In this document: piece after piece, positions 9,453-56,257 of the stretch
How the letters are laid out: every line of letters begins with the position of its first letter
Numbering within the stretch: the stretch's first letter is position 1
Assembly: GCA_036339585.1 (NCBI GenBank)
Contig: JAYZAS010000001.1
Location: 248,001-312,000, forward strand
Direction of reading: 5' to 3'
Source: Pseudomonadota bacterium
GTDB lineage: Bacteria; Pseudomonadota; Alphaproteobacteria; UBA8366
Length of the DNA: 64,000 nucleotides
The notes under the pieces: model-generated
Told to the model about the DNA's origin: nothing
The model's database searches: none
What the model saw: only the letters and a program-made list of their open reading frames with translations
Translations under genes and position numbers: made by a program

Positions 9453-9684
9453 AGAATGTAACCCCTCATCTAAAAGAAAAAACCCCGTTGCTCCTATACC
9501 TTTTCCTCTTTGTGTTATTTAGAACCCAAAGTCAAAAAATCCCCACGAGCGTGGTTCACTATGTAAAATACAATTGCTTCTGATAAGATATCTTCCCGTG
9601 TTGAGAACTTTTGGTTATTTTCGCGTTGGTTTCTTAAGAGGAAGTGTACCTCGCATTTTTAAAAGATTTCCAATAGGTTTATTT

Positions 9685-10536
9685 ATGACGACAATTAATC
9701 CAATGCAAAATGACTTTATTGCGCAAATTATTGGCGTTGACCTTGCTGGGCCGATCGAAGAGAAAACATTTGCCAAAATTCAAACGGCATTGCATGAATT
9801 TGGAGTGATCCATTTTCCGAAGCAAGAATTAACACCATCAGCACTATCCTCATTTACCAAACTCTGGGGGAAGCCTGACGTTCACCACCTTGCTGAGCAT
9901 ACATTCCCCGAACACCCCGAGGTACGGGTACTTTCTAACGTAAAGAAAGACGGCAAGCTGGTTGGCGCATTCAGGGGTGGTAACTATTGGCATTCAGATC
10001 TTTCCTATTTGAAGAAGACCGGCTACGTAACGCTGCTTTATGGAATTGAGTGTCCATCCGAAGGGGGCGATACTCTTTTTGCCGACATGTGTCGCTTATA
10101 CGAAAACCTCCCCACCGCTATCCGAGTACAGATTGAGGGTAAAATGGCAGTGCACGATCGAAATTACCGCTATTCAGCTCTATACCCCGAGCGCCCCCCG
10201 TTAACCGAATCTCAATTGGCAAGCGTACCACCGGTGGAACATCCAGCGGTAATTACGCACCCAGTAACGAAGAAAAAATCAGTATTTCTTTATAAAGAAA
10301 TAATTCGAACCATTGGCGACTTAGATCAGGAAACCACATGGGCACTGATGGAAAAGATTGAGGGCCTTTTAGACAATGACGATTTCGTTTATCGCCACGA
10401 ATGGGAACCTGGCGACCTCGTAATATGGGACAATAGGTGCACTCTTCATTCAGCCACGCCCTACGATTCAGAAAAATTTCGCCGCGTCCTTTACCGAACA
10501 CAAGTCAGTGGCGAATTACCGGCTTACGTTGCTTAA
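9685..10536 (+). CDS. TauD/TfdA-family Fe(II)/2-oxoglutarate dioxygenase
   Basis: A 283-residue non-haem iron dioxygenase. The facial triad starts with H103 and D105 in WHSDLSY, and the distal His is in CTLHSATPYD. The 2-oxoglutarate arginine follows in the RRVLYRTQ region. The frame is open from a TTG at 9574, but the ATG at 9685 has an AATAGG upstream and matches the family start. It is the first gene of a plus-strand run with two cupin proteins and a crotonase. The substrate is unknown; taurine is not implied. A homologous gene is at 21865-22746 and a decayed one is at 34555-35417. Confidence 0.87.
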   Translation: MTTINPMQNDFIAQIIGVDLAGPIEEKTFAKIQTALHEFGVIHFPKQELTPSALSSFTKLWGKPDVHHLAEHTFPEHPEVRVLSNVKKDGKLVGAFRGGNYWHSDLSYLKKTGYVTLLYGIECPSEGGDTLFADMCRLYENLPTAIRVQIEGKMAVHDRNYRYSALYPERPPLTESQLASVPPVEHPAVITHPVTKKKSVFLYKEIIRTIGDLDQETTWALMEKIEGLLDNDDFVYRHEWEPGDLVIWDNRCTLHSATPYDSEKFRRVLYRTQVSGELPAYVA

Positions 10537-20023: not shown

Positions 20024-20989
20024 CTATTCCGCTGCCGTGGGCATCTCGTGCTCGGCAAGGAACTTCTCAGCTTCTAAAGCAGCCATGCAACCCATCCCAG
20101 CAGCCGTAACTGCTTGCCGGTAGGTCTTATCTTTTACATCACCGGCAGCGAAGATACCGGGTATGCTGGTTACCGTACTATCGGGCTTGGTTAGGATATA
20201 ACCTTCATCATCCATATCAATTTTATTCTTGAAGACCCCGGTTGCTGGGTCATGCCCAATAGCTATGAAAACACCCTGTAATTCAATATCCATTTTTTGT
20301 TCGGATTTCACATTTTTAATACGAGCCCCAGTGACCTTAAGTGGATCACCACCCCCTAGCACCTCATCGACGACACTGTTCCAAATCACTTCAATTTTTT
20401 CGTTCTGAAGTAATCGCTCCTGTAGTATTTTTTCCGCTCGGAACGAATCTCGCCTGTGTATGACTGTGACTTTTGCGGCATGGTTTGTTAGATATAATGC
20501 CTCTTCGACAGCAGTATTACCTCCTCCAACCACCGCAACGCTTTGATCCTTGAAAAAGAAACCATCGCATGTAGCGCATGCGGAAACACCAAAACCCTGA
20601 AATTTTTGTTCTGATTCGAGGCCAAGCCAGCGTGCTTGGGCACCAGTGGCAATAATAACAGTTTCACCACTGTACGTATCTCCCATATCGCCAGTCATTT
20701 GAAAAGTATCCTGATTAAAATCAACATCGTTAATCATGTCATAAATTATCTGGGTTCCGACACCCTCAGCCTGCTTTTGCATCTGCTCCATTAACCATGG
20801 ACCCTGTATTACCTGCTCAAACCCCGGGTAATTCTCAACATCCGTAGTTATGGTCATCTGCCCGCCAGGCTGCATTCCAGCAACAATAAGTGGCTTGAGA
20901 TTGGCGCGCGCCGCGTAAATTGCGGCAGTATAGCCCGCAGGACCAGATCCAATGATCAAGACTTTACTGTGATGATGACCCATTTTCAT
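20024..20989 (-). CDS. trxB: Thioredoxin reductase
   Basis: A 321-residue FAD/NADPH flavoprotein that reduces thioredoxin. The FAD motif is GSGPAGYTAAIYAARA (14-29), the redox-active pair is C138/C141 in ACATCDG, the NADPH motif is VVGGGNTAVEEA, and the C-terminal GIFAAGDV motif is present. Length and order match bacterial low-molecular-weight TrxB. It is single-copy in the window and monocistronic as far as can be seen, with trailing sequence MPTAAE. Confidence 0.96.
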   Translation of the reverse strand: MKMGHHHSKVLIIGSGPAGYTAAIYAARANLKPLIVAGMQPGGQMTITTDVENYPGFEQVIQGPWLMEQMQKQAEGVGTQIIYDMINDVDFNQDTFQMTGDMGDTYSGETVIIATGAQARWLGLESEQKFQGFGVSACATCDGFFFKDQSVAVVGGGNTAVEEALYLTNHAAKVTVIHRRDSFRAEKILQERLLQNEKIEVIWNSVVDEVLGGGDPLKVTGARIKNVKSEQKMDIELQGVFIAIGHDPATGVFKNKIDMDDEGYILTKPDSTVTSIPGIFAAGDVKDKTYRQAVTAAGMGCMAALEAEKFLAEHEMPTAAE

Positions 20990-21051: not shown

Positions 21052-21852
21052 TCAATTCCAATGGTTCGGAACAAGATCAGCCCGAACCGCAAATTCCTCT
21101 GCACCAGGAACTTTCGGAAATCTATTTAAAACCAGTGGATCGTGACCAGGGATAATATGTTCCGGTGAGTCTGCCAATTTGGCAATGGTACTATACCCAT
21201 TCAACATGTCAGCAACGTTTAAAACCAATGGAAAAGGATTTTTTTCTTCGATATTGGCATACAGATGGATTGCATCAACTGCAAGCACTACCCAACCACG
21301 CTGAGTATTAACACGCACCACCTGCAGTCCATCGGTATGCCCACCAACATGGTGTAGCGTTATTCCAGGTGCTAATTCCTTGAAGCCGTGGACAAACTCG
21401 ACCCTGTCACCGAAAAGTGCGCGAACCATATCAACCACATAATCAACAGCAAAAATATCACGGAAAACCGGATGTTGCATATTAGGCCCTGTAGCAAAAG
21501 CCATCTCACGTTCTTGTATGTGAAATGTCGCTTTGGGAAACTCATGTGCATTGCCGCAATGATCGTAATGCATGTGGCTGACGACGAGGTCCTCGACTTC
21601 GCCAGCGTCGATCCTAATCTTCGCGAGCGCCTCCGCCGGCGTGCGAAGCAATCGCCGCCCCCGCTTTTTTGCCTCTTTTTCTTCAAACCCCATATCCACT
21701 ATAATCACACGGCCTTCTTCATTCTTAAGTGCCCAAATAAAATAGTCCATTGGCATCGGACCATTGTGCACATCCGTAAATAAAAAATGTTCGTGCTTTA
21801 GCGCATCAGTGCGCTCCGCATATTTGAGCACATAAATTTCCCACGTATTCAT
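21052..21852 (-). CDS. Metallo-beta-lactamase-fold hydrolase, N-acyl-homoserine-lactonase-like
   Basis: A 266-residue MBL-fold enzyme with the dinuclear zinc motif HMHYDH (H93, H95, D97, H98), then HHVGGHTDG and the late IPGHDPL. The arrangement, including the early GPMPMDYFIWAL region, resembles AttM/AiiA-type lactonases. Lactonase activity towards quorum signals is one possibility. Placement at the end of an operon with a dioxygenase, aconitase X and gamma-glutamyltransferase makes a metabolic lactone at least as likely. The start lies 12 bp after the dioxygenase gene ends. Confidence 0.8.
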   Translation of the reverse strand: MNTWEIYVLKYAERTDALKHEHFLFTDVHNGPMPMDYFIWALKNEEGRVIIVDMGFEEKEAKKRGRRLLRTPAEALAKIRIDAGEVEDLVVSHMHYDHCGNAHEFPKATFHIQEREMAFATGPNMQHPVFRDIFAVDYVVDMVRALFGDRVEFVHGFKELAPGITLHHVGGHTDGLQVVRVNTQRGWVVLAVDAIHLYANIEEKNPFPLVLNVADMLNGYSTIAKLADSPEHIIPGHDPLVLNRFPKVPGAEEFAVRADLVPNHWN

Positions 21853-21864
21853 TTTGGCTATTCT

Positions 21865-22746
21865 CTAAACAGCTAGTGTGGGCCGAGAACCACGAACCGT
21901 GGTGCGATGCATCCGACGACGGGCATTTTTCTCATCAAATGGAAGAGCTTTATGCAACACGCTTCGATTATCCCATATGATGACATCACCTGGCGTCCAC
22001 CGATGTACATATTCAAATTTAGCCTGACTCGCAAACTCCATCAGCTCATGGATTATTTTTTGGCTTTCCACATCTTCCATGCCTTCGAAACGGCGAACAA
22101 AAACAGCTGACAAATAGAGTGCCTTACGGCCCGTTTCGGGATGACTAATCACTGCAGGATGCGATTGAGGCGGTGTGGATGTCTTTTGCTCATCGGTTAG
22201 AGGAGGTCGGTCCTTGTGATGATTCTCAAAATTCCATACATAGTCGTGCACTCCCATTCTTTTAAGAAGCCATTGTTTGCGCTCCTCAGGCAACGCTTCA
22301 TAAACTGCAAACATACTTGTAAAGCAAGTTTCGCCTTCACCCTCGGGACATTCAAGGCAATGGAAAATAGAACCTAGACTTGGCTCTTTCATATATGACA
22401 GGTCAGAGTGGTACCGTTTCGAACCCCCGAATGCACCAACATGCTTTCCGTTTTCTATTATATTTGAAACGACAAATATTTCTGGGTGTCCTGGCAGACA
22501 ATAATTGCTTAAAACATGGTTTTCCAATAGACCGAACCGCTTGGAAAACTCAATGTGTTCGTCTGGTGACCAATTTTGGTCATGAAATATGAGAACGCTG
22601 CGATCGTGCAACTCTCTCTGGATTTGTTGAAAAACTGAATCAGGCAATGGGTTGGCCAGATCAATCCCTGACACCTCAGATCCTATATGCTCCGTAGCAG
22701 GCGCGAATGCGACCTCTTCATTAAAAACCTTTTTAGCAACTCCCAT
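21865..22746 (-). CDS. TauD/TfdA-family Fe(II)/2-oxoglutarate dioxygenase
   Basis: A 293-residue dioxygenase. H113 and D115 in YHSDLSY begin the facial triad, the distal His is in SVLHKALPFD, and the 2-oxoglutarate arginine is in RRRMHRTTVRG. It sits 17 bp after the small aconitase X subunit gene and 12 bp before the lactonase-like gene. It shares the HSDLSY region and general layout with the dioxygenase at 9685-10536, so the two are paralogues. A hydroxylase that prepares a substrate for aconitase X dehydration is an attractive but unproven role. Confidence 0.87.
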   Translation of the reverse strand: MGVAKKVFNEEVAFAPATEHIGSEVSGIDLANPLPDSVFQQIQRELHDRSVLIFHDQNWSPDEHIEFSKRFGLLENHVLSNYCLPGHPEIFVVSNIIENGKHVGAFGGSKRYHSDLSYMKEPSLGSIFHCLECPEGEGETCFTSMFAVYEALPEERKQWLLKRMGVHDYVWNFENHHKDRPPLTDEQKTSTPPQSHPAVISHPETGRKALYLSAVFVRRFEGMEDVESQKIIHELMEFASQAKFEYVHRWTPGDVIIWDNRSVLHKALPFDEKNARRRMHRTTVRGSRPTLAV

Positions 22747-22763
22747 GAATTCCTCCCTTAGTC

Positions 22764-23186
22764 CTAAGTCTTAATCCTTGAAAGGATTCTAACAATTCCT
22801 CGTGCTGGAACAATCTCAATCTCATCACCGGTGGATATGGCGGTTGTAATGTCCACATCGAAGCGATCCATAAACGGCATTTTTGCAAATGCCGCCCCCT
22901 GCGCCATAACAGGATTGCCATCATTGAGGAGAAGGCCAAGAGGAGCTTTTTCTTTTTTGACCATCTCACGCAGCATCCATGCTGATGCTACACCCCCTTT
23001 TGCTGCGTTAAGCACCAAAATACGACCGACAAATTCTTCCCCATACAGTTCATGGCTTGGGCGTGAAAATATGCCGCGATCACGATCTAAGTCGTAACGC
23101 GTGCTGAAATCATCAGGTGCTGATAGAGCAATACCATGTACTGTTGGACCTATCCCTGAATGGCCTTTAATTTCCAATAAACTCAT
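22764..23186 (-). CDS. Aconitase X swivel (small) subunit, DUF126
   Basis: A 140-residue protein of the aconitase X swivel-domain family, the partner of the DUF521 catalytic subunit. Family features are the early GHSGIGPTVHGIAL, HELYGEEFVGRILVL and the C-terminal GDEIEIVPARGIVRIL. The loop after GRILVL reads NAAKGGVASAWML; as I recall the family, this normally carries a serine-rich catalytic signature, so it is divergent. The start overlaps the large-subunit stop by 4 bp, consistent with a stoichiometric complex. Confidence 0.83.
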   Translation of the reverse strand: MSLLEIKGHSGIGPTVHGIALSAPDDFSTRYDLDRDRGIFSRPSHELYGEEFVGRILVLNAAKGGVASAWMLREMVKKEKAPLGLLLNDGNPVMAQGAAFAKMPFMDRFDVDITTAISTGDEIEIVPARGIVRILSRIKT

Positions 23187-24430
23187 CCAAGGACCTTTCC
23201 CTCAATAGCCGATTGTATGCAACGCTGAATGGATGCTGGGGTCGGTCGATAGCCATATCCTGCACAAATATTTACCATTTTTACTGAATGAGTCATTAAC
23301 CGCTCCCATTTATGTGCCAAGCGTATTTCTTTCGCAAAGGTCGCAAAAAAATCATGACCGTGCACCAACCTCGCACCTGCCTTTTCGATTATCTGAGTAA
23401 GACCGATACGAGCGCATGCTTGTTTAATTTCTTTGGGAGTGTATATCAGCAAAGTGGTTCGTTCATGAACCCTTTTGCCATCAAGCAACGCGGCAATTTC
23501 GATGATTTCAGTTACATTCATCTGTGGTGTGGATAGAGCAACCACATCTAGTTCATCACCGATACCACCCCACTCCTGATAAAACGTTCTTACATCGTCG
23601 AAATTAATGGTTTTTACATCAAGTTTTTTCCCTCCTGCCGCAGCTCCCCAATCGGGAGCTTCAGGTGTAACATTCACAACGTGAAACATTGCGATCGAGC
23701 CATAACTCGCCATTGCCAATGCCATATGATTTAGCTCCAATACCGTGGGTGGTGGCCCAGTTAGCTCAAGAGCTGGCACGCACCAATATGAGTTTAGCTC
23801 TCTGCCGATAAGTGCGCCGACAACCCCCCAATCGACTATGTTTGCTGGGGAAAAATCAAGCTTAAAGCCATGAGTGGCAAACCGTTTAGAATCCAAGTGA
23901 AAACCATATCGAGGAACACGACCAGTAAAGAAAGCTGCTAAACTTGATGGGCCCGCCTCAAAATTACAACGCGCTCCAACGATACTGTTCATATATATAA
24001 CCGAGGGTGTGCCACTATAACCGCAAGCTTCGCCGAAACCAGGAGCAGTGACAGAGTGGTCATTGACATAGGCGTGGTTGGTGACAACCCCAAGTTTGCC
24101 GAGGGCGTCAACTGCCTGCCTACCCTCTACCTCCAAGTTTCGTCCCGGCAGAAGAAAATTAAAGTTTTCCTTATCAAAACCTCGAAAATCAGCGGCGGCA
24201 TACGCTCGCGGATAACGTTCGCTCGGCCTAAGACTGCCCAGCTCTTCTATGAAGGCAATACCACTGTCACCCATCGTCTCTCTATCAGTGCTAATATGAA
24301 CGAGCCTTATGGGAACAAAATCTTCGGCATCAAAGAAAGTGCCGACATCTTTTTGAAACCCTATCGCCCAAGCGGCGGCCCTGCCGTGTTTTCCATCGAG
24401 CATAGCCTTTTCTACGTCATCAAGTTTCAT
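23183..24430 (-). CDS. Aconitase X catalytic (large) subunit, DUF521, divergent
   Basis: A 415-residue aconitase X large subunit. Family enzymes dehydrate substrates such as cis-3-hydroxy-L-proline (bacteria) or mevalonate-5-phosphate (archaea) with an iron centre. Support comes from the SVTAPGFGEACGYSGTP region, YMNSIVGARCNFE, FTGRVPRYGFHL and the C-terminal cysteine region NICAGYGYRPTP. Where I expect a GCPH-type motif, this protein has STPQMN. The start overlaps the GTPase stop by 4 bp. Substrate and cofactor state are open. Confidence 0.82.
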   Translation of the reverse strand: MKLDDVEKAMLDGKHGRAAAWAIGFQKDVGTFFDAEDFVPIRLVHISTDRETMGDSGIAFIEELGSLRPSERYPRAYAAADFRGFDKENFNFLLPGRNLEVEGRQAVDALGKLGVVTNHAYVNDHSVTAPGFGEACGYSGTPSVIYMNSIVGARCNFEAGPSSLAAFFTGRVPRYGFHLDSKRFATHGFKLDFSPANIVDWGVVGALIGRELNSYWCVPALELTGPPPTVLELNHMALAMASYGSIAMFHVVNVTPEAPDWGAAAGGKKLDVKTINFDDVRTFYQEWGGIGDELDVVALSTPQMNVTEIIEIAALLDGKRVHERTTLLIYTPKEIKQACARIGLTQIIEKAGARLVHGHDFFATFAKEIRLAHKWERLMTHSVKMVNICAGYGYRPTPASIQRCIQSAIEGKVLG

Positions 24431-25434
24431 ATTTTTTTCATATCACGAAGTCGCAAACATGCAAGGAGACTCGTCCCAACATCTTCCCAGTCTGGCATGT
24501 TCTCTTTTTTGGCTATAATTTCAACTCGACTATCTCGGCGGTAGGCGATAGTGGCCTTTCCCATTTCATCGTCGGATCGGTTGATCAACATCCAATGGCG
24601 TCCTGTCCGAAAAACGCCCTTCAAACGTGAGATGCCATTTATATGCTCAGCCCATGCGATCAAACTGCGTCGATTAAATATATCTGACGGTGAGAATAAC
24701 CAACCACATGACACGTACCCATCTCCCTCAGTTTTGAAGTGCAGAGGTCGATTTGGAGCCAAATCAGATTCTTTCTTTGTTTTGTGCCGATGATTTGCCG
24801 AATGAGCTTCTGGAAAAAGAGGGGCTCGAGTAGGATCAAGATCGAGATCGAGAAGCTCCAAATCAATAGACCCATTACTAGCCGAGGTAAAGTGAACTTT
24901 GGAGGGGAACAACCCTGACGCCCATTCCTGAAATGTTTTTTTATTCACATCATTTGATAGATCCCATTTATGTCCAATGAGAACATCTGCCATATGGATT
25001 TGATCTTGAAATACCTCCGATCCACTATGACTCAGCTCTTTAATCCTCCGCGGATCTACAAGACACAGCGTTGCACGCAAGTCAATTTGACCAGATTGTT
25101 CGGAGTTACGTAAAAGGTCTAGTACACCAGCGGGGTGACCAAGACCCGTGGGCTCAATGAGAACTCGGTCGGGCCGCTGACGTCGTATAAGATCTGTAAG
25201 GGCCACTCCCATCGCAACATTAGATACACAACAAATACATCCACCCGGCACCATACGGACATGCTCAGATTCTCCATCCAACATAATACCATCTATGCCA
25301 ACTTCTCCAAATTCATTTACCACCACTGCCCATTTCTCATAGTGTGGTTTGCGCCCTAAAATAGAGCGAATGGCCGTTGTCTTCCCAACACCAAGAAATC
25401 CAGTTATTAGATTGGTTGGTACCGAAGTCAGCAT
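24427..25434 (-). CDS. G3E-family GTPase (CobW/YjiA-like metallochaperone)
   Basis: A 335-residue G3E GTPase. Walker A is GFLGVGKT (12-19), the metal-binding CxCC is C66-x-C68-C69 in GGCICC, and Walker B is in IEPTGLGHP. The base-specifying NKxD appears as HKWD. The C-terminal CobW_C domain is present with GVFRTGRHW. It lacks the histidine-rich linker of the CobW at 50629-51666. It begins 9 bp after the gamma-glutamyltransferase gene and overlaps the aconitase X large subunit, so a dedicated role in loading metal into that enzyme is the simplest inference. Confidence 0.85.
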   Translation of the reverse strand: MLTSVPTNLITGFLGVGKTTAIRSILGRKPHYEKWAVVVNEFGEVGIDGIMLDGESEHVRMVPGGCICCVSNVAMGVALTDLIRRQRPDRVLIEPTGLGHPAGVLDLLRNSEQSGQIDLRATLCLVDPRRIKELSHSGSEVFQDQIHMADVLIGHKWDLSNDVNKKTFQEWASGLFPSKVHFTSASNGSIDLELLDLDLDPTRAPLFPEAHSANHRHKTKKESDLAPNRPLHFKTEGDGYVSCGWLFSPSDIFNRRSLIAWAEHINGISRLKGVFRTGRHWMLINRSDDEMGKATIAYRRDSRVEIIAKKENMPDWEDVGTSLLACLRLRDMKKI

Positions 25435-25443
25435 AAAAGCGCC

Positions 25444-27228
25444 CTACCGACCCACAGCATAGCCTTGCATCCCACGTGGATTAGCAGCAGCTTTCAAGAC
25501 GCCTCCATCAGTCGCTACAGCGCACATTCGACCTTCAGACCAATCACCTGCAATTTCAAGATCGTGACCACGATTTTTTAGATCGTTTTGAGTATTCTCC
25601 GAAAATCTTCCCTCAATCACAAGGCGCCCAGGCGAGGCCTGCCGTGGGTAAAACGAGCTTGGATGGTGTTCGTTATGAAAGGAGGGCGCATCAATTGATT
25701 CTTGCAAATTAAGACCATGCGTCACATGCCTGATCAAAAAATTCGTCTGCCATTGATCCTGTTGATCTCCTCCTGGCGTACCGTACGCCATGTACGGCTT
25801 TCCGTCACGGTATGCCATCGAGGGGGTGAGGGTTGTCCTAGGACGTTTCCCAGGCATTAAACTCGCCGGCTTGTCGTCCTCGAGCCAAAACATCTGCATA
25901 CGTGAACCAAGGCAAAAGCCGAGCGCTGGGATAATCGGAGAGCTTTGCAACCAGCCGCCGGAGGGCGTCGCCGCAATCATATTACCATCCTTGTCAATTA
26001 CGTCGATGTGGCAGGTATCGCCATTTGATGGTCGGCCAACAGTAGGCTCGCCAATTCCAGCCAGGTTTGACCTCGCAATGGCTGCACTATTTATGGCAGC
26101 TTGATAATTTACAGAACCCCCGTATCCATCTACCTGACCAGGCCGGAACTCCAGTGAGGCGCTTTCACCAATCAGTTTACGTCTTTTATCGTTATAAGAA
26201 TCAGACAGTAATATCTCCATTGGCACATCTACGAACTTTGGGTCGCCGTAGAACGTCTCCCGGTCAGCAAACGCAAGCTTTGCGCACTCCGTTACAGCAT
26301 GAATAAATTCGCTACCCTCAGTATCCATGTCCTCAATCCCGAGCCCTTTCAGCAGAGCTAGTTGCTGGAGTTGAACGGGCCCTTGGCTCCAAGGACCTAT
26401 TTTAAAAATGGTGTGATCACAGAAGTCGTACGCTAACGGAATATCATATGATGCCCGCCATTTTGCCATATCATCACCGGTAAGCACGCCACGATGAGGC
26501 TTCCCTGAGGCATCCATTACTTCATTTTCCCGGCAGAACTTATCGATTTCTTCAGCAATAAAACCGTTGCCCCAAGCATCTCTTGCTGCCTCGATCTGCG
26601 CCTGCCGATCACCCCCCGCTGACTTAGCCTCAGTGATCAATCGCCTCCACGTCTTGGCAATCCCCTCATTCCCTAGAAGAGACCCAGGCTTCGGCACCTC
26701 TCCATTTGGCATATATACTGGCTGTGAGGTAGGCCAATGATTACGGAATATCTCTTCCACGCCACTTATGGTTTTGTAAATATTAGGCACGATAGGTGCG
26801 CCATGCTCTGCGTAGTAGATCGCTGGAGCAAGAACATCCTCAAGATCGAGAACACCATAATCCCTCAAAATCAACAAGTAACCATCAACTGCACCCGGCA
26901 CTGCTGTTGCCAAAAGGCCGGTGCCTGGCACGAGTTCTAGACCTAGTTTATCGCGATAATACGCCATTGTAGCACCCGCCGGAGCAGGCCCCTGACCACA
27001 AACAACCTTAGGCTCCCGCTCACCTGCAACATGAATTATCGCCGGCATATCACCTCCGGGACCATTCAGGTGAGGTTCAGCAATATGTAGAACAAATCCT
27101 GCACAAACTGCAGCATCAAAAGCATTTCCACCCCTCTCTAGCATCGATATTCCAGCAGCCGAAGCGAGCCAATGAGTGGTAGACACCATGCCAAATGTGC
27201 CTAGTAGTTCAGGACGCGTTGTAAACAT
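25444..27228 (-). CDS. ggt: Gamma-glutamyltransferase family protein
   Basis: A 594-residue Ntn-hydrolase of the Ggt family that cleaves or transfers gamma-glutamyl groups. The autoprocessing nucleophile is T405 in SNGDTCHIDVID, preceded by the large-subunit region (GGNAFDAA, NGPGGDMPAIIH). The small subunit carries TPSGGWLQSSPI and RTTLTPSM. There is no clear signal peptide, unlike periplasmic Ggt of Escherichia coli, so a cytosolic role on a gamma-glutamylated intermediate is plausible. It is the first gene of a six-gene leftward operon. Confidence 0.9.
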   Translation of the reverse strand: MFTTRPELLGTFGMVSTTHWLASAAGISMLERGGNAFDAAVCAGFVLHIAEPHLNGPGGDMPAIIHVAGEREPKVVCGQGPAPAGATMAYYRDKLGLELVPGTGLLATAVPGAVDGYLLILRDYGVLDLEDVLAPAIYYAEHGAPIVPNIYKTISGVEEIFRNHWPTSQPVYMPNGEVPKPGSLLGNEGIAKTWRRLITEAKSAGGDRQAQIEAARDAWGNGFIAEEIDKFCRENEVMDASGKPHRGVLTGDDMAKWRASYDIPLAYDFCDHTIFKIGPWSQGPVQLQQLALLKGLGIEDMDTEGSEFIHAVTECAKLAFADRETFYGDPKFVDVPMEILLSDSYNDKRRKLIGESASLEFRPGQVDGYGGSVNYQAAINSAAIARSNLAGIGEPTVGRPSNGDTCHIDVIDKDGNMIAATPSGGWLQSSPIIPALGFCLGSRMQMFWLEDDKPASLMPGKRPRTTLTPSMAYRDGKPYMAYGTPGGDQQDQWQTNFLIRHVTHGLNLQESIDAPSFHNEHHPSSFYPRQASPGRLVIEGRFSENTQNDLKNRGHDLEIAGDWSEGRMCAVATDGGVLKAAANPRGMQGYAVGR

Positions 27229-27375
27229 TAAATATGCCTCTTATTTGAAATGGAATATTAAATTTAGCCTTATCTGACTATCCCCACAATCCAAACTACA
27301 TATAACTTAGTCGATACCCTTGACAGGGACAATTGATGAAGCCTAATGCAAACAATAATAACGAGGGCTTTGTAT

Positions 27376-28290
27376 ATGGGACAACGAGTAATAATTCCCC
27401 ACAAACGGGATTTTAAATTCGAATATGGCGTGCCAGATGTGCTATCACCCTTAATCCGCAGGGTGATTGCCGAAAACCCCAGCCCATTTACCTTCCGTGG
27501 TACCGGCACCTTCATCGTTGGTCATGGTGACGTAGCGGTGATTGACCCAGGACCACTCGACGAAAAACATATCGATGCAATACTGGCTGCCACAAAAGGC
27601 GAGAATATTACTCATATTTTCATTACACATACCCATTCCGACCATTCCCCTAACACCCAACTACTTAAACCTGCTACCGGAGCAACTACTTATGGCTACG
27701 GACAGCACGGCAAAGATCGAGGGCTTCAAATTGGCGACGGAAACGGTGATTACGACTTTCAACCGGATATCCTTTTGAAGGACGGAGATATTATCCGCGG
27801 CAAAACCTGGTCTCTTGAAGCAGTGCATACACCCGGTCATGCTTCGAATCATCTTTGCTATGCTCTGAAAGAAAATAAAGTGCTGTTCAGTGGGGATCAC
27901 GTAATGGGATGGTCAACCACAGTGGTCTCAGCGCCCGACGGTGATATGGGCTCTTATATCCGTTCACTTGAGAAATTACTGAAGCGAGATGAGACACGAT
28001 ATTGGCCAAACCATGGGACTTTTATCGACAAACCTCATGCATACGTCAATAAGCTTATTGCTCATCGCCGTGACCGTGAAAAACAAATTAGTGCCCATCT
28101 TGAAAAAGGGATTGAGAGTGTAGAGATGCTGGTTGCTGAAATGTACAAGGGTTTAGACCCGCGGCTCTACCGAGGCGCTTGTCGAGCTGTACATGCCCAC
28201 TTAGTGCACATGGTCGAAACCAAGCGAGCTCTCTGTCACGGCAAACTCGAGGAAACAGACCGCTTCACCCCACCGGGCGGAATGAAATGA
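27376..28290 (+). CDS. Metallo-beta-lactamase-fold hydrolase (LACTB2-like)
   Basis: A 304-residue MBL hydrolase with THTHSDHSP (H85, H87, D89, H90), then HTPGHASNHL and SGDHVMGW, which is the glyoxalase II/LACTB2-like pattern. The C-terminal helical part (LDPRLYRGACRAVHAHL) matches the winged-helix-like tail of that group. I prefer the ATG at 27376, which has GAGGG 8 nt upstream, over the in-frame ATG at 27346. Its stop overlaps the pepN start as ATGA. The substrate is unknown. Confidence 0.83.
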   Translation: MGQRVIIPHKRDFKFEYGVPDVLSPLIRRVIAENPSPFTFRGTGTFIVGHGDVAVIDPGPLDEKHIDAILAATKGENITHIFITHTHSDHSPNTQLLKPATGATTYGYGQHGKDRGLQIGDGNGDYDFQPDILLKDGDIIRGKTWSLEAVHTPGHASNHLCYALKENKVLFSGDHVMGWSTTVVSAPDGDMGSYIRSLEKLLKRDETRYWPNHGTFIDKPHAYVNKLIAHRRDREKQISAHLEKGIESVEMLVAEMYKGLDPRLYRGACRAVHAHLVHMVETKRALCHGKLEETDRFTPPGGMK

Positions 28291-55324: not shown

Positions 55325-56257
55325 TTAGCCTTTAAGCGGGTCCTTGCGTTCTGGCATAGTAAAGAATCCGTGCAACACATGAACTGCGCGATGACGATTA
55401 TATCCAAGCCATGTTGAATGAGCCTGCCCCGCCATAGTAATAAGAACTTTATCTCTCGTTGGTAGCTTTTCATAAAAAGATATAAGATCCTCCGGTGAAG
55501 CTATCCCATCGTGCTCTCCACGAATGATCATTACAGGACAGGAGATTTTTTCTGGGTTACATACTGGTAAATTTGCACACATATCGAGATAAGTTCCCGT
55601 GGGCACGAAACCACCAAAACGACTTTCGGATTTTGCCATAGCCATGGCTACATCTTTATCTGCTAATCCATCGATATCTCGACTAAAGATGGTCTCAAAG
55701 AATTCTCGATTGACAGGGCGTTTATTCGATGATCTCCACTGATCGAGCTTCTTAGACCGCTCTGCCAAAGTTGGCGACCCTTTACCTGTCCACACCATGG
55801 CTCCGAGAGCTAATCGCGCGACCCGCTCTGGGTATGCTTCGGCGAATGCAGCTGCTCTCAGCGCTCCTGACGATTGCCCCGAAAATAAAAAAGACGAGAC
55901 GCCAGTCTCTGTCATGATAATATCGGTCGCTGCTTTCAAATCCTCAACTCCCGATGCGATGTCAGAATTTGCTCCCTCGCGTAGCCCTGAAAAACCATAA
56001 CCCTCGTGATCCATACTCCAAACGTCGTAGCCAAGCCTTGCAAACGTATTCATCAGTGAGTAGTCCTCACGGCCTGGCACCTCAAGATCGTGACCAGTGA
56101 TGCCAGCATAGGAGGATCCGTGCACAAAGAATGCTATTGGTTTGGGACTGCCATCCGCCGAAGTAGATGCTAGCTGTCGGCGAAATATATGTAGCTTAAT
56201 GCTATCTTTTTCTGCCCAGTATTCTTTCCGAATAAATTCATCACCCATTTCTTTCAT
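55325..56257 (-). CDS. Alpha/beta-hydrolase
   Basis: A 310-residue alpha/beta-hydrolase fold enzyme. The nucleophile elbow is GQSSG with S129, oxyanion region FFVHGSSYAG, acid in RGEHDGIAS, and the late histidine in MAGQAHSTWLG. Start MKEMGDEF at 56257; MGDEF is a possible alternative. There is no signal peptide. The type resembles lysophospholipase- or epoxide-hydrolase-like enzymes, but the substrate cannot be assigned. Confidence 0.85.
   Translation of the reverse strand: MKEMGDEFIRKEYWAEKDSIKLHIFRRQLASTSADGSPKPIAFFVHGSSYAGITGHDLEVPGREDYSLMNTFARLGYDVWSMDHEGYGFSGLREGANSDIASGVEDLKAATDIIMTETGVSSFLFSGQSSGALRAAAFAEAYPERVARLALGAMVWTGKGSPTLAERSKKLDQWRSSNKRPVNREFFETIFSRDIDGLADKDVAMAMAKSESRFGGFVPTGTYLDMCANLPVCNPEKISCPVMIIRGEHDGIASPEDLISFYEKLPTRDKVLITMAGQAHSTWLGYNRHRAVHVLHGFFTMPERKDPLKG

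Follow-up and report, generated by a model that had tools for sequence, protein, structure and literature searches.

A composite alphaproteobacterial operon carries an aconitase X without iron-sulfur cluster ligands

A 64,000-nucleotide stretch of an alphaproteobacterial genome of the GTDB lineage UBA8366 (hereafter the window; G000:C1:248001-312000, assembly GCA_036339585.1, 2.8 Mb in 25 contigs) was analysed for a compact operon encoding a protein of the gamma-glutamyltransferase (GGT) family, a G3E GTPase, the large and small subunits of aconitase X (AcnXL and AcnXS), a TauD-family dioxygenase (TauD) and a metallo-beta-lactamase-fold hydrolase (MBL) (Table 1). The initial annotation had placed these six genes on one strand, with junctions from GGT to MBL of 9, -4, -4, 17 and 12 bp; order, junctions and family names were all borne out, each name being backed by Pfam scores far above cut-offs. 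G3E, AcnXL and AcnXS are translationally coupled by 4-bp overlaps, and a seventh same-strand gene, encoding thioredoxin-disulfide reductase (TrxR), lies 62 bp downstream of MBL and is part of the same conserved block. Promoter-like sites at the locus were no more numerous than in shuffles; terminator-like sites numbered 12 against a shuffle mean of 7.5 (sd 3.1), and none lay clearly within an operon junction. The operon combines known families in a new order, and the AcnX that it encodes, from an AcnXL gene present in one copy in the genome, belongs to a clade that is a new form of AcnX, devoid of the cysteines that hold the iron-sulfur (Fe-S) cluster.

Table 1. Features of the operon and its flanks in the window, and loci of family f4 (see text)
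Feature	Position	Strand	Evidence
GGT-family N-terminal nucleophile (Ntn) hydrolase, 594 aa	25444-27228	-	Pfam PF01019 (G_glu_transpept) 378 bits; ~50% identity to 6j3a/6j3i
G3E (COG0523) GTPase, 335 aa	24427-25434	-	Pfam cobW 139 bits; YjiA-like; Walker A and CICC
Aconitase X large subunit (AcnXL), 415 aa	23183-24430	-	Pfam AcnX 262 bits; TkAcnX and AtAcnX alignments
Aconitase X small (swivel) subunit (AcnXS), 140 aa	22764-23186	-	Pfam AcnX_swivel_put 65 bits; TkAcnX small-subunit alignment
TauD/TfdA-family Fe(II)/2-oxoglutarate dioxygenase, 293 aa	21865-22746	-	Pfam TauD 214 bits; HxD at 113
MBL-fold hydrolase (MBL), lactonase-like, 266 aa	21052-21852	-	Pfam Lactamase_B 47 bits; HMHYDH at 93
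TrxR, end of older conserved block	20024-20989	-	TIGR01292 418 bits (cut-off 343)
MBL2, divergent MBL-fold hydrolase with winged-helix domain	27346-28290	+	Pfam Lactamase_B 77 bits and BLACT_WH
Family f4 xsc-AcnX loci	L045:5161-11480; L043:618-4206; L046:8752-11351; L060:6006-9190; L044:6392-9779		

The cluster of TkAcnX is held by Cys110, Cys283 and Cys342, and the homologous cysteines of AtAcnX include Cys273 and Cys508 (PMC8184944). Mutation of the three cysteines of ApPMDh leaves <4% activity (PMC10040528), so these positions matter in canonical enzymes. When window AcnXL was aligned to TkAcnX, Tyr121, Thr301 and Asp360 were found at the positions of C110, C283 and C342, and Gly140 at that of the catalytic glutamate (Glu129 in TkAcnX, Glu292 in AtAcnX). 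The catalytic lysine (Lys361/Lys530) is kept as Lys384. In window AcnXS, Gly65 of a KGGVA motif occupies the position of the catalytic serine (TkAcnX Ser62). Membership of the aconitase X family is supported by the Pfam large domain, the swivel small subunit and the AcnX fold.

A residue census was taken over 83 distinct AcnX large subunits, 13 of them from the window's clade and 70 from outside it, among which are AtAcnX, TkAcnX and a broad group of canonical bacterial sequences. The first cysteine site (C110/C273) is Tyr121 in 13/13 clade sequences and Cys in 70/70 others; the second (C342/C508) is Asp360 in all 13 and Cys in 69 of the 70; the catalytic acid site is Gly140 in every clade member and Asp or Glu in every other sequence. 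The alignment of the clade with its sister group is gapless around the cysteine and acid positions, and the 13 cysteine-less sequences form one branch with a long stem (support 100/100). Since the canonical sister group already lacks the third cysteine and the small-subunit serine, the clade-specific loss comprises only the two remaining cysteines and the acid. Seven residues (His119, Tyr121, His125, Cys136, Tyr330, His357 and Asp360) never vary within the clade and are missing, or almost so, from the other 70 sequences; most of them occupy the two vacated cysteine sites or lie next to these. The only invariant cysteines of the clade, Cys136 and Cys404, are, judged by their places in the chain, too few and too far apart for the usual three-cysteine cluster site.

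The AlphaFold model of AcnXL has a mean confidence (pLDDT) of 93 and superimposes on TkAcnX (7cnr) with TM-scores of 0.84/0.90. Between congeners the ratio of nonsynonymous to synonymous substitution (dN/dS) is 0.10-0.125, like that of the neighbouring genes, as expected under purifying selection. These values, together with the retained Lys384, indicate that AcnXL is folded and under selection, with a rebuilt pocket. To our knowledge, no aconitase-superfamily enzyme of characterised function works without an Fe-S cluster, and no paper describing an AcnX without cluster ligands was found. The clade probably represents an active AcnX whose metal site is not of the Fe-S kind and is perhaps mononuclear.

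Window AcnX was compared with the characterised forms. Like the phosphomevalonate dehydratases (type IIb; TkAcnX/TkPMDh, 7cnr, and ApPMDh) it has two subunits, the fold and the catalytic lysine, but it lacks C110/C283/C342, E129 and small-subunit S62, replaced as described above. It shares the fold and the Lys530 equivalent with AtAcnX, whereas Cys273, Cys508/510, Glu292 and Ser70 are not kept and the score is 128 bits against an NCBIfam cut-off of 700. The closest canonical relatives, the bacterial two-subunit sister AcnX (KGGVA/TCINYQ/GDTG type), are 37-44% identical, have the KGGVA small subunit and have likewise lost the third TkAcnX cysteine, but retain Cys121, Cys360 and Asp140 in 42/42 sequences. 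The landmark residues of the cis-3-hydroxy-L-proline (C3LHyp) dehydratases (type I/IIa), which are Ser70, Cys71, Glu292 and Lys530 in AtAcnX, correspond here to Gly, Val, Gly140 and Lys384, only the last being kept. That a hydroxyproline-type AcnX acts in this operon was therefore rejected, the protein having neither the residues that define hydroxyproline dehydratases nor any of the Fe-S cysteine ligands. In PMC8184944, AcnX types IIc-IIf are described as uncharacterised and as lacking the residues that mark either of the two known activities. The cysteine-less clade may fall within one of these types.

The distribution of the operon was examined across the 44 genomes of the order; genomes, loci, genera and families are given by our own labels. 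The order GGT-G3E-AcnXL-AcnXS-TauD-MBL was found in 5/44 genomes and only in genera g1 (the window genome G000, G001 and G002) and g4 (G005 and G009, in which an extra TauD occupies the same place). Proteins of the g4 operons are 54-80% identical to those of the window, and the same order and 4-bp G3E/AcnXL overlap recur in this second genus, so the arrangement is not a chance one. Two motifs of the cysteine-less clade were used to scan 84,980 bacterial and archaeal species genomes; 28 AcnX loci were recovered, of which 12 belong to the clade, all in alphaproteobacterial metagenome-assembled genomes (MAGs). Among named records, the closest are MAGs of marine Rhodospirillaceae. The six-gene order is thus a narrow feature. 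Rarity of the gene set among relatives had been named in the initial annotation as grounds for giving up its single pathway, and the order is rare, being confined to two genera, with G3E decayed in one genome.

Comparison with related genera showed that the locus is a composite operon, in which an older MBL2/GGT-MBL-TrxR block is combined with a newer G3E-AcnXL-AcnXS-TauD cassette. In genus g2 of the same family f1 (L127, L128), GGT (68-69% identity) is followed directly by MBL (56%) and TrxR (77-78%), with a divergent MBL2 on the other side of GGT and no AcnX, G3E or TauD between GGT and MBL. The MBL-TrxR pair is conserved in f1 and is retained without AcnX in several genomes of family f2, where GGT lies 10-14 kb off on the same contig in G020, G023, G029 and G032. 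GGT orthologues occur in 31/44 genomes of the order (E <= 1e-190); the divergent MBL2/GGT pair was seen in each of the family's five genera that yielded GGT (g1, g2, g3, g4 and g5). In the AcnX tree, the g1 and g4 sequences are placed among those of f2, and a tree in which the three f1 genera were held together was rejected (log-likelihood difference 32, approximately unbiased test p-AU 0.00012). The GGT tree groups the same three genera on one branch. Because the AcnX tree is at odds with that of the species while the GGT tree does not separate these genera, a horizontal acquisition of AcnX is probable; read most simply, the cassette entered the interval from GGT to MBL in an ancestor that g1 and g4 share. 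Relatives of the operon TauD at ~60% identity lie elsewhere in the order, outside the operon. A single pathway in which GGT releases the substrate of AcnX, as first proposed, is not supported by these observations, GGT and MBL being an older unit that stands without AcnX in other genera. What survives of that proposal as a whole is a real compact operon.

The G3E protein carries the Walker A motif GFLGVGKT at 12 and CICC at 66 (GCxCC motif), as expected of COG0523 G3E GTPases. It resembles CobW, YjiA and ZigA in the Walker A and GCICC motifs but falls below every equivalog cut-off. In both g1 and g4 a 4-bp overlap joins its stop codon to the AcnXL start. Among the 44 genomes G3E was found only in the g1/g4 operon, and among 289 sampled genomes of the class one further relative turned up (48% over ~213/335 residues), other matches being <=40% over part of the protein. 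In G002 the gene is decayed (L069:9720-10001; G002:C13 near 55780-56060) by an internal deletion and a frameshift, the remnant consisting of ~46 N-terminal residues fused to the C-terminal part and then frameshifted; the other five genes are intact. The dN/dS of G3E is 0.31, relaxed relative to its operon neighbours. Given this value, the decay in G002 and the absence of G3E from f2, a dedicated metal loader is not needed by the whole clade, and G3E as an obligate partner of AcnX was rejected. Of the initial claim that the GTPase loads metal, the part that holds is a plausible role as metal loader for AcnX, in keeping with the translational coupling; an essential role does not hold. No described COG0523 member is linked to AcnX in Haas 2009 (PMC2770081), which mentions neither aconitase nor DUF521.

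The GGT-like protein retains the autocleavage site Asp404-Thr405 (GDTCH), with the Thr nucleophile conserved relative to E. coli GGT (2e0w). In the same alignment Gln79 stands for Arg114 and Met for Asp433 (E. coli numbering), which we take to bind the gamma-glutamyl moiety and its amino group, respectively, in the E. coli enzyme. The score on TIGR00066 is 249 bits, below the cut-off of 358. Release of a gamma-glutamylated compound by this protein, the opening step of the pathway in the initial annotation, was rejected because the gamma-glutamyl-binding Arg and Asp are missing. The ~50% identity to 6j3a and 6j3i extends over the full length; the cleavage site of 6j3a is Asp420-Thr421, and 6j3i has Ala at 421. 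LmbA2991 of Streptomyces lincolnensis is numbered D420-T421 and has been studied as a T421A variant (PMC5519988). From the agreement of the numbering and of the T421A twin entry 6j3i we infer that 6j3a is LmbA2991; no paper on 6J3A/6J3I or 8X78 was found in the literature. LmbA-type proteins are described as inactive on gamma-glutamyl compounds and as cleaving a pyrroline C-C bond (PMC5519988; PMC6085292). Window GGT shares with these homologues the Asp-Thr site, the missing gamma-glutamyl-binding Arg and full-length similarity, and by sequence is closest to the C-C-bond hydrolase type, to which LmbA2991 belongs. In the family (G000 to G010) each genome yields 7-22 GGT-family matches, the window genome 10, a single gene sometimes accounting for two of them. 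As the genes are so numerous, GGT beside AcnX is only moderately improbable by chance. Independently of the operon in the window, GGT was also seen beside canonical AcnX, lying downstream in two Hyphomicrobium species and 22 bp upstream in G020 (L088:11622-13205; L094:11700-12419; L047:10646-12328).

The operon TauD belongs to the TauD/TfdA superfamily, with RdpA and TauD as its closest PDB relatives, but scores 176 bits against the NCBIfam taurine-dioxygenase equivalog cut-off of 313. Enzymes of the TauD family act on unactivated carbons by hydroxylation or oxidative cleavage, and TauD could make a hydroxy acid for AcnX. Another dioxygenase of the family is encoded elsewhere in the window (9574-10536; 37% identity to the operon TauD). 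MBL has the HxHxDH metal motif and reaches at most 57 bits on the N-acyl homoserine lactone (AHL) lactonase equivalogs, against cut-offs of 325-475. Relatives of window MBL (47-48% identity) divergently adjoin canonical AcnX in three alphaproteobacterial genomes (L084:7634-8419; L085:2098-2829; L087:9066-9854). That the GGT-like protein and MBL act before or after AcnX is only a possibility, since both are older than the association with AcnX.

Gene neighbourhoods of other AcnX were also inspected. Guilt by association was set aside for the clade, as the neighbours of its f2 and g2 orthologues (enolase-superfamily and Rid proteins, an OsmC hydrolase, a cupin and a molybdenum hydroxylase) disagree on a pathway. 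In G029 of f2 (L070:2775-6836) a clade AcnX lies behind an enolase-superfamily protein and a Rid-family protein; in g2 (L078:7518-11646; L079:7671-11646) a cysteine-less AcnX directly follows the large subunit of a molybdenum hydroxylase, the frame of which meets the AcnXL start. Threonine-dehydratase-like enzymes stand beside canonical AcnX in L052 and L058, and these together with the Rid and enolase neighbours give a hint of hydroxy amino acids. In family f4, canonical Cys-bearing AcnX was found in a sulfoacetaldehyde operon (Table 1) composed of a MocR-type regulator, xsc (TIGR03457 938 bits, cut-off 676), AcnXL, AcnXS, a TauE-type sulfite exporter and the phosphate acetyltransferase gene pta. 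This operon hints at sulfonates as substrates of canonical sister AcnX and suggests an unrecognised AcnX step in organosulfonate catabolism.

The reading that we favour, at about even confidence, is a composite catabolic operon in which an AcnX with a rebuilt pocket acts on a hydroxy acid by means of a mononuclear metal, with G3E as loader and TauD, GGT and MBL in neighbouring steps. As the comparison of genomes shows, an older GGT-like/MBL/TrxR block took up the G3E-AcnXL-AcnXS-TauD cassette in an ancestor common to two genera of marine Rhodospirillaceae. TauD would make or prepare the hydroxylated substrate, a small hydroxy acid from which AcnX would eliminate water or a similar leaving group. 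The vacated cluster pocket may hold a single metal ion (Fe, Zn or Mn), a metal-free pocket being less likely; G3E would help to load this metal without being essential. In the same compound or a related one, the GGT-like protein and MBL may work on nearby bonds (amide, C-C, lactone or thioester). More tentatively, we propose that the whole clade gave up the Fe-S cluster and came to carry out elimination at a mononuclear metal site made of His, Tyr and Asp, the metal being loaded in two genera by a dedicated G3E that is translationally coupled to AcnX. Several points weigh against the favoured reading. The part of GGT and MBL in an AcnX pathway may amount to co-transcription, given that both predate the association; the loss of cluster ligands could also mean a metal-free or non-catalytic protein; and G3E, besides its decay and relaxed dN/dS, is absent from f2 genomes with the same AcnX clade.

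The first of these points is taken furthest if the cassette is only a passenger, read along with GGT from the promoter of that gene while serving a pathway unrelated to GGT, MBL and TrxR. This is a serious possibility, somewhat short of an even one, and is compatible with either view of the active site. It agrees with an ancestral GGT-MBL-TrxR block that is complete without AcnX and with the horizontal origin of AcnX, but the order and the tight junctions have been kept since the g1/g4 split, over a synonymous divergence that is saturated, and g4 carries its second TauD in the same place. That the clade is instead a substrate-binding protein, or a lyase or isomerase that uses no metal or no cofactor, with His/Tyr/Asp as general acid/base or substrate ligands, appears unlikely: the losses of the cluster ligands, the catalytic Asp/Glu and (earlier) the small-subunit Ser would fit, as would the retained Lys384 and the dispensability of G3E, but the newly invariant residues are of metal-ligand type and stand beside the two lost cysteine positions, and a metallochaperone-type gene overlaps AcnXL in two genera. 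A single pathway along the lines of the initial annotation is improbable. In it GGT would release a gamma-glutamyl compound for TauD to hydroxylate, an Fe-S AcnX would then dehydrate an acid like hydroxyproline, and MBL would open a lactone, with metal loaded by the GTPase. Although the compact order is common to five genomes and GGT (two Hyphomicrobium species, G020) or MBL (L084, L085, L087) adjoins AcnX elsewhere, GGT lacks the gamma-glutamyl-binding residues and is abundant enough for chance linkage, GGT-MBL occurs without AcnX, and AcnX lacks both the Fe-S cysteines and the C3LHyp landmarks.

Operons of this kind should not be annotated as glutathione or hydroxyproline metabolism. The findings narrow the question of what bacterial AcnX types IIc-IIf (PMC8184944) do. 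If the favoured reading is true, the operon would provide a test case for a G3E metallochaperone and its client encoded together, and a clade that keeps the AcnX fold with His/Tyr/Asp in place of the cluster ligands would show how a catalyst can be rebuilt without an oxygen-sensitive cofactor.

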